Shown: positions 24,508 to 32,951 of the stretch, piece by piece
Numbering within the stretch: position 1 is the stretch's first letter
Layout of the letters: every line of letters starts with the position of its first letter
Source of the DNA: a virus
Virus record (IMG/VR): IMGVR_UViG_3300037847_004692
Location: 1-33,351 of that record
Strand: one strand, 5' to 3'
DNA length: 33,351 nt
Notes under the pieces: generated by a model
Databases searched by the model: none
Told to the model about the DNA's origin: nothing
The model's input: the letters and a program-made list of their open reading frames with translations, nothing else
Translations under genes and position numbers: made by a program

Positions 24508-24668
24508 AATGGATGGGGGTAATTGCCCTATTCTTTTTTGGTATAGCTATGATGTGTCAGGGACATTTTATTGTAACTGGCAAACATGGATACAAACATA
24601 CAGAGCGCGAAAAACACAAAATGTCTAGTGCTCGTAAACAAGTAGAAACTTTATTAAAAGACAAATGA
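24486..24668 (+). CDS. small membrane protein before gnd (60 aa)
   Basis: A 60-residue protein with one hydrophobic segment (WMGVIALFFFGIAMMCQGHF, about 9-28) and a basic cytoplasmic-type tail (HTEREKHKMSSARKQVETLL). It overlaps both neighbours, including an ATGA junction with gnd. Function unknown. Confidence 0.7.
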   Translation: MAENHVIEWMGVIALFFFGIAMMCQGHFIVTGKHGYKHTEREKHKMSSARKQVETLLKDK

Positions 24669-25705
24669 AAGTAGGAATGATTGGATTGGGTCGTATGGGT
24701 GAGGGAATGTCTCGCCGTATGATTGCAGCAGGACATGAAGTACACGGATATAGAAACAACTATGCAAAAGCTCAAGAACAATTTGAAAAGGGTTATATCA
24801 GTGGATGTACCACTTCTCTGGAAAGCCTTGTTCAAGTAGTTCACCAAGGAACAGAAATGACAGGAAAGGTTCCTGGTATTTTCATGATGGTTGTACCAGC
24901 AGAAACCGTAGAGGACACACTCAATGAGTTATTACAGTTTTGTGTGGAGGGAGATATTATTATTGATCATGGCAATAGTAATTTTAAGGATTCTCGATAC
25001 AGAGCAGAAAGGTTGTCTAAGATGGGCATCCAATATCTTGACTGCGGTACTAGTGGTGGTGTTTACGGTCTGGAGCGTGGATACTGTCTTATGGTTGGTG
25101 GTACAGATACTGCAGTATCCGTCTGCCGTCCAATCTTTGATGCACTCGCACCTGGCATCAAGGGAGCTGAACGAACCTCTGATGGAAGTTACGTTTGGTA
25201 TCCTGAGGAATGGGGTTGGATGCATTGTGGTGCCGCCGGTGCTGGACATTTTGTAAAGATGGTGCATAATGGAATTGAGTATGGTATAATGCAAGCATAT
25301 GCTGAAGGGTTTAATATCCTTCATGAGGCAAATGCGGGTTCACAGTATGTCAAAGAAGGAGATGCAGAGGTTGCTCCAATGGAATGTCCAGCAGACTATT
25401 GCTACGATATTAACATTGCTAAGGTGGCTGAGTTATGGCGTCGCGGTTCTGTTGTTGGTAGCTGGTTACTTGACCTTACCGCTGATGTTCTACGGCATGA
25501 TCGAGAACTTAGCAAGTTCGATGGTGGAGTATCAGACAGTGGTGAGGGTCGTTGGACGGTTCACGCTGCTGTGGATCTTGGCGTACCCGCTCCTGTCATC
25601 AGTAGTGCGTTGTATTCACGTTTTGAGTCGCGCCGTCTTGGTGCTTTCGCATCCAAGATTTTGAATGGAATGAGAGCTATGTTTGGTGGTCATGACGTTC
25701 GCTGA
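24665..25705 (+). CDS. gnd: 6-phosphogluconate dehydrogenase, decarboxylating
   Basis: Oxidative pentose-phosphate enzyme converting 6-phosphogluconate to ribulose-5-phosphate and NADPH. The 346 residues are nearer the short prokaryotic class than the roughly 470-residue form. Rossmann motif GLGRMG is at 7-12, GTSGG near 128-132, and the catalytic segment FVKMVHNGIEYG has K198 and N202. All key motifs appear intact. The 3' end overlaps the small ORF at 25692 and abuts the zwf region. With zwf and talC it should boost NADPH and pentose supply for nucleotide synthesis. Confidence 0.95.
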   Translation: MKVGMIGLGRMGEGMSRRMIAAGHEVHGYRNNYAKAQEQFEKGYISGCTTSLESLVQVVHQGTEMTGKVPGIFMMVVPAETVEDTLNELLQFCVEGDIIIDHGNSNFKDSRYRAERLSKMGIQYLDCGTSGGVYGLERGYCLMVGGTDTAVSVCRPIFDALAPGIKGAERTSDGSYVWYPEEWGWMHCGAAGAGHFVKMVHNGIEYGIMQAYAEGFNILHEANAGSQYVKEGDAEVAPMECPADYCYDINIAKVAELWRRGSVVGSWLLDLTADVLRHDRELSKFDGGVSDSGEGRWTVHAAVDLGVPAPVISSALYSRFESRRLGAFASKILNGMRAMFGGHDVR

Positions 25706-25823
25706 TGTCTTACTTTGGGCAGCACTACCCTTTGTATGTGCCACCCTCGCATTTGGACGATTTAAGGGTGAAATATCGTATTACGACTCGGAGGACTATG
25801 ACGGAAACGGAACCGCTCACTAA
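25692..25823 (+). CDS. overlapping small membrane protein between gnd and zwf (43 aa)
   Basis: A 43-codon ORF overlapping the gnd end and the zwf start. Translation begins MTFADVLLWAALPFVCATLA and ends with an acidic, Tyr/Asp-rich tail (ISYYDSEDYDGNGTAH). One membrane segment followed by a short soluble tail is a coherent design, which supports translation. No strong ribosome-binding site is seen. If real, zwf starts at 25798 and not at the in-frame ATG at 25705. Confidence 0.55.
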   Translation: MTFADVLLWAALPFVCATLAFGRFKGEISYYDSEDYDGNGTAH

Positions 25824-27138
25824 GGGAATTGTTATCTTCGGTGCAACGGGAGACCTTTGTAAGAAGAAACTAATTCCATCACTATACAAACTTTGGCAGA
25901 AAAGATTACTGCCGGATAATTTTTTAATTACTGGTTGTTCTAGGAGAGATCCTGGAGTACAAATTTGGAAAGAATCTCTTGGAGAATATCCAGAAGAATT
26001 TCTTCATCATCTAGATTACGTTTCTGCAGATCTCGACAATGTTGATACTCTTTCTCACCTTCCTAATTACTTACACGACAATACGTATTTTCTATCCGTT
26101 CCTCCAGAAAGGTATGAAAATGCAATCGTCAATCTCAAATCAGCAGGAAAACTCGAAGATCCAGAAAGATCCCGTGTGGTTGTGGAAAAACCCTTTGGGT
26201 ACGATTTTAAATCTGCTGATCATCTACAGTCTGTGGTTGAGCGACATCTACGCGAAAAACAAGTATATCGCATTGACCATTATCTCGGCAAAGATACTGT
26301 TAATAATATACTTGCTACTCGGTTTAGTAATATTTTGCTTGAACCACTCTGGAATCGTCAGTACATAGAAGAGATTCAGATCTTTGCATCAGAGACTATC
26401 GGATGCGAAGGTCGCTCACAATACTATGAGACTGCTGGTGCTGTACGAGACATGTTACAGAATCATATTCTGCAAGTTCTTTCATTGATTGCTATGGAAC
26501 CACCTAGCAAGATGAATGCGAGGGAAATCAGACGTGAGAAGACAAAAGTGCTTGCCGCGACTAGACTAGGTACAAATCTTATCTTGGGACAATATGATGG
26601 CTACCGTAACGAAGAGGGCGTTAATCCTAACAGTGGTACTCCTACCTATTTTGCTGGGACTTTATTCGTCGATAACTGGCGTTGGGAAGGAGTTCCTTTT
26701 AACGTCATGACAGGAAAAAAACTACCATACCAATGTGTAGAGGTAGTAATCAAACTCAAATCACCACCGCTAAAATTATATGAAGGAGAAGTTAACGACC
26801 GCATCGTCATGCGTTTACAGCCTAATCCTCATCTCGATATCCGTATGGATATTAAGTCACCTGGGCTCAATGACAACTTGGAGTTGGCAACACTCACCCA
26901 CGCCTATCCCCAAGACAGAGCAATCGATGGATACGAAAAACTTCTTTACGACGCCATAAATGGAAAACAATCTAACTTTGTTCACGCTGAAGAAGTTATG
27001 GAATCCTGGAGAATCGTTGATGATCTTCTCTGTACTGGTGACAAGTGTCCCGTTCGTACTGTTCCTTACATCTATACTGGCGGGTGGGGTCCACAATACA
27101 AAACAGAACAAATAACAAATTGGGATTATCCAGCATGA
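25798..27138 (+). CDS. zwf: glucose-6-phosphate 1-dehydrogenase
   Basis: First enzyme of the oxidative pentose-phosphate pathway, making 6-phosphogluconolactone and NADPH. From the ATG at 25798 it has 446 residues. The NADP-binding motif is GIVIFGATGDLCKKK (10-24), then EKPFG (about 130-134), and the active-site RIDHYLGKDTVNN (158-170). I prefer 25798 because GGAGG (25790-25794) precedes it and the Rossmann motif follows at once; a start at 25705 would add 31 residues. It is slightly shorter than typical bacterial Zwf. The stop overlaps a 27-residue ORF. Confidence 0.94.
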   Translation: MTETEPLTKGIVIFGATGDLCKKKLIPSLYKLWQKRLLPDNFLITGCSRRDPGVQIWKESLGEYPEEFLHHLDYVSADLDNVDTLSHLPNYLHDNTYFLSVPPERYENAIVNLKSAGKLEDPERSRVVVEKPFGYDFKSADHLQSVVERHLREKQVYRIDHYLGKDTVNNILATRFSNILLEPLWNRQYIEEIQIFASETIGCEGRSQYYETAGAVRDMLQNHILQVLSLIAMEPPSKMNAREIRREKTKVLAATRLGTNLILGQYDGYRNEEGVNPNSGTPTYFAGTLFVDNWRWEGVPFNVMTGKKLPYQCVEVVIKLKSPPLKLYEGEVNDRIVMRLQPNPHLDIRMDIKSPGLNDNLELATLTHAYPQDRAIDGYEKLLYDAINGKQSNFVHAEEVMESWRIVDDLLCTGDKCPVRTVPYIYTGGWGPQYKTEQITNWDYPA

Positions 27139-28495: not shown

Positions 28496-28704
28496 ATGAA
28501 GACTGGCGTTACAGTGAAGAGAGAATGGATGTAAGAACTCAAGGTCTTAACATTCTTCTCAAAAGATTTGGATCTGAAATTTGTTCGGATGGATCTCCCA
28601 GATATTCCAATAGAAGCATTTATGAATGTATTCATGACTGGGTTTCTCAGGGAAACAAAGATACAGAAGGACTGATCAGATATTACATTTCCCATTACGC
28701 TTGA
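28492..28704 (+). CDS. hypothetical protein (70 aa)
   Basis: A 70-residue soluble protein (MNEDWRYSEERMDVRTQGLN...; ECIHDWVSQGNKDTEGLIRY). It is coupled to the nuclease gene, and its TGA stop forms part of the next -35 box. No recognisable domain. Confidence 0.65.
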   Translation: MNEDWRYSEERMDVRTQGLNILLKRFGSEICSDGSPRYSNRSIYECIHDWVSQGNKDTEGLIRYYISHYA

Positions 28705-28729
28705 CAACCAGCTAAAATGCCCCTATAAT
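28701..28729 (+). promoter_or_regulatory. perfect sigma70 promoter before tRNA-Ser
   Basis: TTGACA (28701-28706), 17-base spacer, TATAAT (28724-28729). The TGA in the -35 box is the upstream stop codon. A late motif ACTAAATA follows at 28738-28745, so the tRNA region may be transcribed in both phases. Confidence 0.85.
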
Positions 28730-30321: not shown

Positions 30322-30424
30322 TCCTAGAGAGAAAAAACTTCCATATCTAAGTAAACGTGATATGGAATTTCAAGAAAATAGACGACAACGTAAAATTCGT
30401 AAACTTGATTTTGAAGAACGATGA
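30176..30424 (+). CDS. small zinc-ribbon-like protein (82 aa)
   Basis: An 82-residue protein starting MLVIRCKNCGKKLEAHPTQL. CKNC followed by CQC (about 23-25) makes a plausible four-cysteine zinc site. The C-terminus is basic (QENRRQRKIRKLDFEER). It ends in an ATGA overlap with talC. The first 146 bases are shared with the coiled-coil ORF. The cysteine motif and the coupling to talC favour this frame as real. Confidence 0.72.
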   Translation: MLVIRCKNCGKKLEAHPTQLRSCQCPNFTSIRGTNISGNSLDLVEIVTNPREKKLPYLSKRDMEFQENRRQRKIRKLDFEER

Positions 30425-31065
30425 AAATTTTTCTAGACACTGCTAATTACAGAGAGATCTCTGACCGTTATTGTACTGGTCTTGTGGATGGTATTACAAC
30501 CAATCCAACACTAGTAAAGAAGTCTGGTGCTAATTATTTTGATTTTATTCGTACTTTGTCTAGAGATTTTGCTTTTGAAAGTATCTCTGCCGAAGTTAAT
30601 GGAGAAGATGCTGATGAGATGATTTCTAATGCTCAACAGTATATTGCAATTGGTTCAGAAGTTACTATTAAACTTCCTTTGACACAAGAAGGATTGATTG
30701 CATGTAAGATTCTCTCTGATGAGGGTGTAAAAACTAATGTCACTCTTTGTTTTAGTGCAGCACAATCAGTGATGGCTGCTAAAGCGGGTGCTACTTACAT
30801 CTCTCCATTTGTAGGTCGCATGAATGATAACTCCTTCAGTGGTGTTGAACTTGTCCGTGCTATCTCTGGTCTCTATTGTGCTCAAGGTGTTAAGACAAAA
30901 ATTCTTGCAGCATCTCTTCGTGATGCACATCATGTTTCTAGGTGCTTGATGTATGGTGCTAGTGTTGTCACACTCCCACCATCAGTATTTGATAAGATGT
31001 ATAAAAATGTTCTGACTGATGCAGGACTTGCTATCTTTGAGAAGGACTTCAAAGAAATTTCTTGA
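30421..31065 (+). CDS. talC: transaldolase (TalC/FSA type)
   Basis: Pentose-phosphate transaldolase of the short (FSA-like) class, 214 residues. The barrel begins MKIFLDTANYREI. GITTNPTLVKKSG is the substrate-loop signature, and the Schiff-base lysine is in VTIKLPLTQEG (near residue 84). TNVTLCFSAAQ and ISPFVGRMND complete the family pattern. With zwf and gnd it directs carbon through the pentose-phosphate pathway, a known cyanophage strategy. Its TGA stop is inside the -35 box of the next promoter. Confidence 0.95.
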   Translation: MKIFLDTANYREISDRYCTGLVDGITTNPTLVKKSGANYFDFIRTLSRDFAFESISAEVNGEDADEMISNAQQYIAIGSEVTIKLPLTQEGLIACKILSDEGVKTNVTLCFSAAQSVMAAKAGATYISPFVGRMNDNSFSGVELVRAISGLYCAQGVKTKILAASLRDAHHVSRCLMYGASVVTLPPSVFDKMYKNVLTDAGLAIFEKDFKEIS

Positions 31066-31090
31066 CAAGTGGTTGTCCCTCCACTATAAT
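31062..31090 (+). promoter_or_regulatory. perfect sigma70 promoter before tRNA-Pro
   Basis: TTGACA (31062-31067), 17-base spacer, TATAAT (31085-31090). The talC TGA stop is within the -35 box. Confidence 0.87.
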
Positions 31091-31533: not shown

Positions 31534-31607
31534 GCCATTCTAGCTCAGTTGGATAGAGCAGGTCTTTTGTAAAGATCAGGTCGCAGGTTCAAGTCCTGTG
31601 AATGGCT
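31534..31607 (+). tRNA. tRNA-Thr (anticodon UGU)
   Basis: A 74-base tRNA: acceptor GCCATTC pairs with GAATGGC, anticodon stem GGTCT/AGATC with loop TTTGTAA, T-arm CAGGTTCAAGTCCTG. It reads ACA. Confidence 0.94.
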
Positions 31608-31838
31608 TAGTCTCGGAACGACTCTAAAAGTGCCCTGGTCGGGATGGGTTTTACGACCCCTCGGGTTTCCAGTTTTTCCATAAAAACTGGTGGTGCGGAT
31701 GGGGTAACTCCCGCCTGGTTTCTTACTTCCAGTCAAAGAGTAAGTGGTGGTGCCAAATCCCTTCCGTGTGGTTGGTTCCTATTTACAACTAAAACAAATA
31801 GGTGGCGAGCCTGCTTGGGGGATGACCTCCCCCTCCTC
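31608..31838 (+). ncRNA. gene-free array of about four imperfect hairpin repeats (period near 55 bases)
   Basis: A 231-base stretch between tRNA-Thr and tRNA-Leu, without a credible gene. Three units have an A/T-rich perfect stem: CCAGTTTTT/AAAAACTGG (31669-31690), CTTACT/AGTAAG (31722-31744) and CCTATTT/AAATAGG (31778-31802). Each is followed by GGTGGTGC, GGTGGTGCC or GGTGGCGAGCC and then a second stem: GCGG/CCGC, CCAA/TTGG and GCGAG/CTCGC. A more degenerate first unit contains GGTCG/CGACC (31637-31658). The starts of the shared GGTGG-type element are 53-57 bases apart. The last stem overlaps the first bases of tRNA-Leu. No known RNA family recognised. Confidence 0.6.
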
Positions 31839-31920
31839 GCACGTATGGCGGAATTGGTAGACGCGCTGGGTTTAGGTTCCAGTGGGGCAACCCGTGAAGG
31901 TTCAAGTCCTTTTACGTGCA
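31839..31920 (+). tRNA. tRNA-Leu (anticodon UAG)
   Basis: An 82-base class II tRNA: acceptor GCACGTA pairs with TACGTGC, anticodon stem CTGGG/TCCAG with loop TTTAGGT, variable arm with GTGGGGCAACCCGT, T-loop GGTTCAAGTCC. It reads CUA. Confidence 0.93.
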
Positions 31921-31941
31921 TTATTCTTTAATTTGAATATT

Positions 31942-32607
31942 ATGAAAAAACTATTATTGGCTCTTATGTTGATGACAAGTCCTGCACTTGCAGATCATCA
32001 AAAGGGTCATATTAAAGGATACAACTCTATGGATTCTATGGGTTGTATGTTACTCCGAGAGTGTACAGATGGAGTCGAACAAGTCAATAATCTTCTGGAT
32101 ATTTCTAGTCGTTATCCCAACACTAGTGATTTTACTTTTGCTTCTTACGAGTTCAACCGAATGCTCGGTGCTCTTGAGCAGGTCGGAGTTAAAGTGTTTT
32201 TAGCAGATGAAAAATATTTTCCACCCGAACATCGTGGAGTCTATCATACTGTTAGTAATAACTTTTTCCTGAACAAAAAATACATGGGTAAACCTAATGT
32301 ATTGATGCAAGTGATGCGTCATGAAGGTTGGCATGCTGCACAGGATTGTATGGCTGGAACTATTGAGAATAGTTTGATTGCTATTATCAAACCTGAGGAT
32401 GAAGTTCCTATGATCTGGCGTGTTATGGCAGAACGAACCTACCCTGAACATGCTGTTCCCTGGGAAGCGGAAGCAAGTTGGGCGGGAAGAACTGAGGGTA
32501 TGACCATGGAAGCTCTTGAAGCTTGTGCTGCTGGTGAAATGTGGAAGGTCTACGAACCCACCCCACTGACCAGAAAGTATCTGGAAGAAAACGGATACAT
32601 GCCTTGA
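31942..32607 (+). CDS. exported HExxH protein, putative zinc metallopeptidase
   Basis: A 221-residue protein from the ATG at 31942. The signal peptide is MKKLLLALMLMTSPALA, cleaved before DHQK. The mature part carries H127-E-G-W-H131 (VMRHEGWHAAQDC), the HExxH zinc-binding and catalytic signature, and a downstream acidic segment PWEAEASWAG whose Glu (E175 or E177) could be the third ligand as in gluzincins. Several cysteines (35, 41, 136) may form disulfides. Target unknown; an envelope or periplasmic substrate during lysis is possible. Its TGA stop lies inside the next -35 box. Confidence 0.75.
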   Translation: MKKLLLALMLMTSPALADHQKGHIKGYNSMDSMGCMLLRECTDGVEQVNNLLDISSRYPNTSDFTFASYEFNRMLGALEQVGVKVFLADEKYFPPEHRGVYHTVSNNFFLNKKYMGKPNVLMQVMRHEGWHAAQDCMAGTIENSLIAIIKPEDEVPMIWRVMAERTYPEHAVPWEAEASWAGRTEGMTMEALEACAAGEMWKVYEPTPLTRKYLEENGYMP

Positions 32608-32632
32608 CAGGATCCCCTGGATCTCCTATAAT
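32604..32632 (+). promoter_or_regulatory. perfect sigma70 promoter
   Basis: TTGACA (32604-32609), 17-base spacer, TATAAT (32627-32632). The TGA stop of the upstream gene is within the -35 box. It precedes the 98-residue ORF and tRNA-Gly. Confidence 0.87.
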
Positions 32633-32654: not shown

Positions 32655-32951
32655 ATGACATCAGATTGCCGACCATTCCTTGGTCCAGACAATACATACG
32701 AAAAACAACGTCGTTGTCGCATGGCGGATGCTATTGGTGACTATCTCTCCGATGAAGATGTAGATGCACGTCGTTGTTATGAAGAAATGCTTGCTGAAGT
32801 AGATGAGATCATCAATTATCATAAAAAAAGTCTTGGTAAAGCAAGTCGATTAAAAGAAATGATGATGGGTAATCGAGACATTAGTTTTTTTGATGATGAT
32901 GAACTTGCTGCAAAATGGCAGTATGATAAAATTCTTTTGACTGAAGAGTGA
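32655..32951 (+). CDS. hypothetical helical protein (98 aa)
   Basis: A 98-residue protein. The ATG at 32655 lies about 15 bases after the expected transcription start and has no visible ribosome-binding site. An in-frame ATG at 32721 (MADAIGDYLSDEDVDARRCY) is an alternative. The sequence is acidic and helical (YEEMLAEVDEIINYHKKSLG). No enzymatic motif. Confidence 0.65.
   Translation: MTSDCRPFLGPDNTYEKQRRCRMADAIGDYLSDEDVDARRCYEEMLAEVDEIINYHKKSLGKASRLKEMMMGNRDISFFDDDELAAKWQYDKILLTEE

Follow-up and report, generated by a model that had tools for sequence, protein, structure and literature searches.

A four-module form of the cyanophage wcaG RNA between two tRNA genes of a viral tRNA cluster

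The DNA analyzed here, referred to as the window, is a stretch of 33,351 nucleotides (positions 1 to 33,351 of IMG/VR virus record IMGVR_UViG_3300037847_004692). It carries a tRNA cluster that comes after a transaldolase gene (talC). Between tRNA-Thr and tRNA-Leu of this cluster lie 231 bases (31608 to 31838), for which an original prediction made from the sequence alone had proposed an array of imperfect, structured repeats. The array is real, with four units spanning 31609 to 31814. The features of the locus are as follows:

31062..31090, plus strand: perfect sigma-70-type promoter (TTGACA-17-TATAAT, 12/12 matches), upstream of tRNA-Pro
31534..31607, plus strand: tRNA-Thr (TGT), found by ARAGORN and Rfam, abutting the array
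31609..31660, plus strand: module A, outside the Rfam wcaG model; head stem AGTC 31609-31612 with GACT 31620-31623, long-range pair C31614-G31632; body CTGGTCGGGA with stem GGGT 31646-31649/ACCC 31656-31659
31661..31758, plus strand: wcaG RNA according to Rfam (RF01761), 89.4 bits versus a gathering score of 42, E 6.4e-17
31661..31714, plus strand: module C; hairpin CCAGTTTTT/AAAAACTGG at 31669-31677/31682-31690, based on pair counts; moderately supported short pseudoknot GG 31664-31665/CC 31678-31679; body GTGGTGCGGATGGGG..CCC, its stem backed by pair counts
31715..31771, plus strand: module D, an H-type pseudoknot based on complementarity and covariation; S1 CTGG 31715-31718/CCAG 31729-31732, L1 UUU 31719-31721, S2 CTTACT/AGTAAG 31722-31727/31739-31744, L3 A-rich; body GTGGTGGTGCCAAATCCCTTCCGTGTG
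31771..31814, plus strand: module T (terminal), outside the Rfam model; pseudoknot GTTG 31771-31774/CAAC 31786-31789, hairpin CCTATTT/AAATAGG 31778-31784/31796-31802, terminal GTGGCGAGCCTG
31817..31833, plus strand: GC stem GGGGGA/TCCCCC, in the position equivalent to the intrinsic terminator of other loci
31839..31920, plus strand: tRNA-Leu (TAG), found by ARAGORN and Rfam, directly 3' of the array region

Given the promoter before tRNA-Pro, the array is probably transcribed within the tRNA cluster, and the transcript likely spans tRNA-Pro, -Ile, -Met, and -Thr, the array, and tRNA-Leu. Perfect 12/12 sigma-70 promoters occur at three places in the window (28701-28729, 31062-31090, and 32604-32632), preceding tRNA-Ser, tRNA-Pro, and an ORF at 32655, respectively, and likely mark the transcription units of the tRNA region. 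Two dehydrogenase genes (one of which also matches 6-phosphogluconate dehydrogenase) and the transaldolase gene, at 24665-27138 and 30421-31065, likely belong to the pentose-phosphate pathway; the RNA array comes after the transaldolase gene. The protein encoded at 31942-32607 starts like a signal peptide and contains HEGWH, an HExxH motif of the metalloprotease-like kind; it matches phrog_591, of unknown function, and has no Pfam match.

Each of the three later units has the A/T-rich perfect hairpin with differing arms that the original prediction described, followed by GTGG(T/C)G. The proposed shared element GGTGG(T/C)G does not extend to the first unit, which has CTGGTCGG instead of GGTGGYG and a different, shorter head (AGTC..GACT). 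GTGG recurs at 31690, 31744, and 31802 in homologous register, giving spacings of 54 and 58 (57 and 55 in the register used originally). Heads are of two types, either a UUU/A-rich H-type pseudoknot or a GUC hairpin to which a single long-range pair is added, and both types are followed by a UGGU(G/C)G body.

A search with the Rfam 15 covariance models identified units 2 and 3 of the four as wcaG RNA, the match covering the full model (1-98), and we regard the identity of the array as wcaG as almost certain. The first description of this RNA, in cyanophages and marine metagenomes, dates from 2010 (Weinberg 2010, PMC2864571), so the suggestion of a new phage noncoding RNA does not hold. PMC2864571 graded wcaG as "certainly" RNA, "probably" cis-regulatory, and "probably" a riboswitch, on the basis that it often precedes exopolysaccharide or high-light genes, and later cyanophage papers (PMC9964418, PMC10665884, PMC9602691) repeat the label without tests. 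The window copy resembles wcaG in sequence, in the two-hairpin consensus of units C and D, and in its cyanophage and marine range. It differs in position, being flanked by two tRNA genes instead of preceding a sugar or high-light gene. Sequence and structure still place it in the family, as the 5' UTR context is the authors' typical setting and lies outside the covariance model. No credible Rfam matches to manA, STAXI, or tRNA-like families were found in the array. manA (RF01745) is another structured RNA of cyanophage tRNA clusters, with a different fold; the Rfam search detected it near wcaG in S-CREM1 and gave no match in the window.

The distribution of homologues agrees with the known range of wcaG in T4-like cyanophages and marine metagenomes. 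In blastn, the 231 bases matched 178 phage records, all Synechococcus, Prochlorococcus, or cyanophage by name, and 18 of the 178 aligned over 80% or more of the query; homologues spanning the whole 225 nt occur in isolates that include S-RSM4, ACG-2014h, and Sf-CH1b. A search with the Rfam model under strict filters, for which the window and ten phage genomes served as positive controls, found wcaG in 0 of 390 cyanobacterial genomes; it replaced a contig scan with a shorter pattern, which hit many unrelated and mostly GC-rich genomes, apparently by chance. Nine of the ten isolate genomes have a single wcaG locus; in S-H35 a full-scoring match is accompanied by a weak one at a distance of 200 nt.

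To describe the RNA beyond the Rfam model we used several hundred IMG/VR loci fetched through three pattern scans; the conserved patterns used in sampling mean that locus frequencies are not unbiased. Modules were assigned by signature: A, CTGGTCGGGA..CCCC; B, TGGTGGAGTCA..TGACC; C, GTGGTGCGGATGGG..CCCGCC; D, GTGGTGG..CCCTTCCGTGTG; and T, GTGGCG(A/T)GC. The generic A/B body pattern proved too short to be specific in whole phage genomes. Within 1 kb upstream of distinct wcaG cores with enough upstream sequence, module A is present in 170 of 171 cases, and the orders among these 171 cores are ABC (93), AC (40), BAC (35), ABAC (2), and BC (1). Many loci have a B module or an extra terminal module, and spacing in loci read in register is about 46-58 nt. 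The window has the order A-C-D-T, for which 28 non-redundant arrays of exactly that kind were aligned. The Rfam wcaG corresponds to module C together with the following module's hairpin and, at 98 nt, lacks modules A and B, the terminal T, and the pseudoknots. We consider it very probable that the four-module array A-C-D-T is the extended form of cyanophage wcaG. It is well supported that wcaG, itself already known, has in reality about twice the length of the catalogued model, with less than half of it covered by those 98 nt; equally well supported are the near-constant module A and the pseudoknot of hairpin 2.

The heads can be exchanged between modules. B occurs with either head type, and the C body of S-PM2 carries a GUC-type head. 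Two matches to the wcaG model fall within one array in ACG-2014h and in Syn1, which is what homologous modules should give. Small ORFs are inserted in 98 of the 303 inter-module gaps counted, which suggests that the modules fold independently. A small membrane-like ORF of about 75-85 aa recurs between modules A and B (its cluster counts 49 cases); in the loci read, its stop codon falls inside the B hairpin (for example, IMG/VR locus L066, from 4562).

Pairing is kept while sequence changes, as originally proposed for a structured phage RNA of repeated units; both the Rfam match and covariation in homologues bear this out. Evidence beyond chance is comparative. Folding of single sequences gave none: the minimum free energy of the 231 nt alone was no better than that of shuffles (z -0.50), and single modules were uninformative (z +1.77, -0.76, +0.33, and -2.01). 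This is as expected if the signal is carried by pseudoknots. Across the 28 four-module arrays, 34 pairs were kept in 98.1% of cells versus 90.2% after shuffling, and 14 pairs had changed on both sides, a result reached in 0 of 500 shuffles.

The top covarying pair of the whole region (174 non-redundant cores) is not part of the Rfam model and links nucleotides 5' of the conserved UUU with the loop of hairpin 2. With the geometry fixed as 4 nt, UUU, the stem, and 4 nt of the loop (a first test with free geometry had a high background and was replaced), this strand is fully complementary to its own loop in 141 of 143 loci versus 29% with swapped loops. Six different 4-bp helices occur (CTGG/CCAG, CCTG/CAGG, CCAG/CTGG, CTAG/CTAG, CAGG/CCTG, and CGAG/CTCG). 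Pair counts over 89 sequences gave 98.1% paired versus 81.7% shuffled, and 222 double-changed cells versus 57; on one side of this helix certain letters were imposed or ruled out by the sampling patterns, and the partner side was free. The pseudoknot is absent from the Rfam covariance model used, and the accessible text of PMC2864571 mentions no pseudoknot for wcaG.

Support for the other modules varies. The 2-3-bp pseudoknot of module C is moderately supported (53% at offsets 0/1 versus 23% swapped), as is S1 of module T, which varies as GTTG/CAAC, GATG/CATC, and GCTG/CAGT and has one pair broken in some homologues. In GUC-type heads (module A and many B modules) a 4-bp GUC/GAC stem is formed and a C or U in its loop pairs with a G or A after UAAAA; in module A the head stem and the loop pair covary, and the long-range pair is present in all 74 sequences (55 CG and 19 UA). 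The window array therefore contains tandem pseudoknots, strong in unit D and moderate in T and C. A similar arrangement, alike only in how it may work, is STAXI (RF01728), in which two or three copies of a pseudoknot follow one another (PMC2864571); that RNA is enterobacterial, lies near DNA-handling genes, and is absent from the window's Rfam matches up to E 10.

What the array does is suggested by its surroundings. A cis-acting role, as proposed by Weinberg 2010, would have a ligand fold the aptamer and alter expression of a downstream sugar or high-light gene, and we consider such a riboswitch or leader rather unlikely. It draws on the position of wcaG RNAs before exopolysaccharide and high-light genes in PMC2864571 and on the genes found here: downstream ORFs form 34 clusters, of which the largest is nucleotide-sugar epimerase-like (75 of 182 ORFs), a further 23 of 182 are cytidylyltransferase-like (both identities read from sequence), and hli genes follow the array in S-H35. 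These two classes keep a cis link to surface-sugar genes alive, and modules directly before the start codons of inserted ORFs could control translation in cis. Other observations weigh against this role. Downstream genes are diverse, including tRNA-Gly, -Leu, and -Met, tail fibre, S-layer, hli, and sugar epimerase genes; the next gene in the window is tRNA-Leu, and tRNAs of four kinds follow the array in 38 of 195 loci (Gly 23, Leu 8, Met 6, Asn 1). In most loci an intrinsic terminator separates the array from the gene (146 of 195; 148 in a second count), often with a fresh promoter: a promoter-like site overlaps the terminator in 101 of the 148, so that transcription of the downstream gene often begins afresh, whereas a 5' leader would be expected to form part of that gene's mRNA. 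In an attenuation riboswitch, aptamer and terminator should have pairing in common, yet no antiterminator pairing was found, the longest array match of the terminator arm being 6.49 for a locus's own array versus 6.49 for swapped ones. Terminators and promoters after the arrays, together with the lack of antiterminator pairing, argue against a 5'-UTR riboswitch and favor an autonomous multi-site RNA.

Individual loci illustrate the variety of settings. In IMG/VR loci such as L002, L032, and L105, just after the array, the loop of the terminator hairpin carries the -35 element (TTGACA/TTGCAT) and TATAAT follows the T-run. The array is near talC and tRNA-Gly in S-RSM4, Sf-CH1b, and ACG-2014h, and behind tryptophan halogenase in Sf-CH11. 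In S-PM2 (NC_006820.1, L465:1365-1436), ARAGORN places a tRNA-Gly (TCC), unannotated in the record, right after the array.

Equally improbable, in our estimate, is a role as an intercistronic or 3'-end element, whose pseudoknots would stall exonucleases or position RNase cleavage, protecting or processing an mRNA or tRNA precursor. The first module often starts close to the end of the upstream ORF or slightly within it (median -5 nt), or abuts the 3' end of a tRNA (10 cases), the array precedes a terminator or tRNA, and modules also lie between small ORFs, all as such an element would. Ordinary stems would suffice for protection, however, and the conservation of module types (A before C-T at nearly all loci) exceeds what a barrier needs. 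The original prediction had raised processing of tRNA-Leu through a last stem overlapping its 5' end. Such a stem can be drawn (GCGAG 31805-31809 with CTCGC 31836-31840) but is absent from the other tRNA-flanked homologues inspected; the overlap is probably due to chance, judging from these sequences, and we rejected it as a processing switch.

Much less probable is that the array is an intergenic cassette, mobile or prone to recombination, which resembles the PeSLs of T4-like phages and has no function as an RNA. The array does occupy the variable region of tRNA, talC, and sugar genes, many loci have a terminator-promoter composite after it, and each genome has one array with differing neighbors. 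PeSL promoter-terminator composites (Arbiol 2010; Comeau 2014, cited in PMC4503421) resemble the terminator and overlapping promoter after most arrays; the array itself is separate from them. In the window, where a PeSL would combine a terminator stem-loop with an overlapping sigma-70 promoter, neither a T-run nor a promoter was found at the stem at 31817-31833. Moreover, each module has several helices with compensatory changes, which shows that RNA pairing is under selection.

A small protein gene, reading from an ATG at 31644, is highly improbable: the ORF matches PHROG family phrog_25004 (hmmscan E 4.9e-18 over 38 residues) and such ORFs are annotated in records (S-RSM4 SRSM4_042, Syn1_206), but 15 of the 26 arrays with this ATG stop after 3-52 codons, further downstream all three frames are used across the same RNA, and the stem changes are compensatory, so we rejected this reading, and the original prediction is not refuted by a conserved protein. 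The family phrog_25004 (37 aa, function unknown; window 31644-31931) itself appears to be a product of spurious gene calling over wcaG arrays.

We return to an autonomous RNA with several sites. Upstream neighbors vary (stop codons of unrelated ORFs, or tRNAs), as do those downstream, and the modules remain together despite changing neighbor genes and inserted ORFs; variable neighbors with module types kept favor this reading. The array would then be not a 5' control region but an RNA with several equivalent sites for one factor, which may be a host or phage protein, or the ribosome or RNase machinery. In the window, processing of the tRNA-Thr 3' end and the RNase P cut at the 5' end of tRNA-Leu would release an RNA of about 230 nt. 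We put this multi-site mechanism at somewhat below an even chance; as the best overall explanation, an extended four-module wcaG in a tRNA cluster acting as an autonomous multi-site RNA stands at about even.

More tentatively, by analogy with CsrB, which titrates CsrA via repeated sites, wcaG may be the core of a larger modular phage RNA whose interchangeable pseudoknot modules titrate one host or phage factor; the array would be released from tRNA or terminator-ended transcripts and would use pseudoknots as its sites. The sponge or decoy role suggested originally is a possibility. Several roles may coexist. The original description missed both the pseudoknots and the association with terminators and promoters. 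Overall, the balance shifts from "riboswitch" toward an autonomous modular RNA, with a cis leader and an element for RNA stability or processing as serious rivals.

For more than a decade wcaG has been listed as a possible riboswitch whose ligand is not known. Should it be a modular RNA of about twice the length that usually has a terminator of its own after it, hunts for a ligand of the 98-nt form and the "cis-regulatory" label would be aimed at the wrong object. The extended model and its pseudoknots open the way to direct tests.
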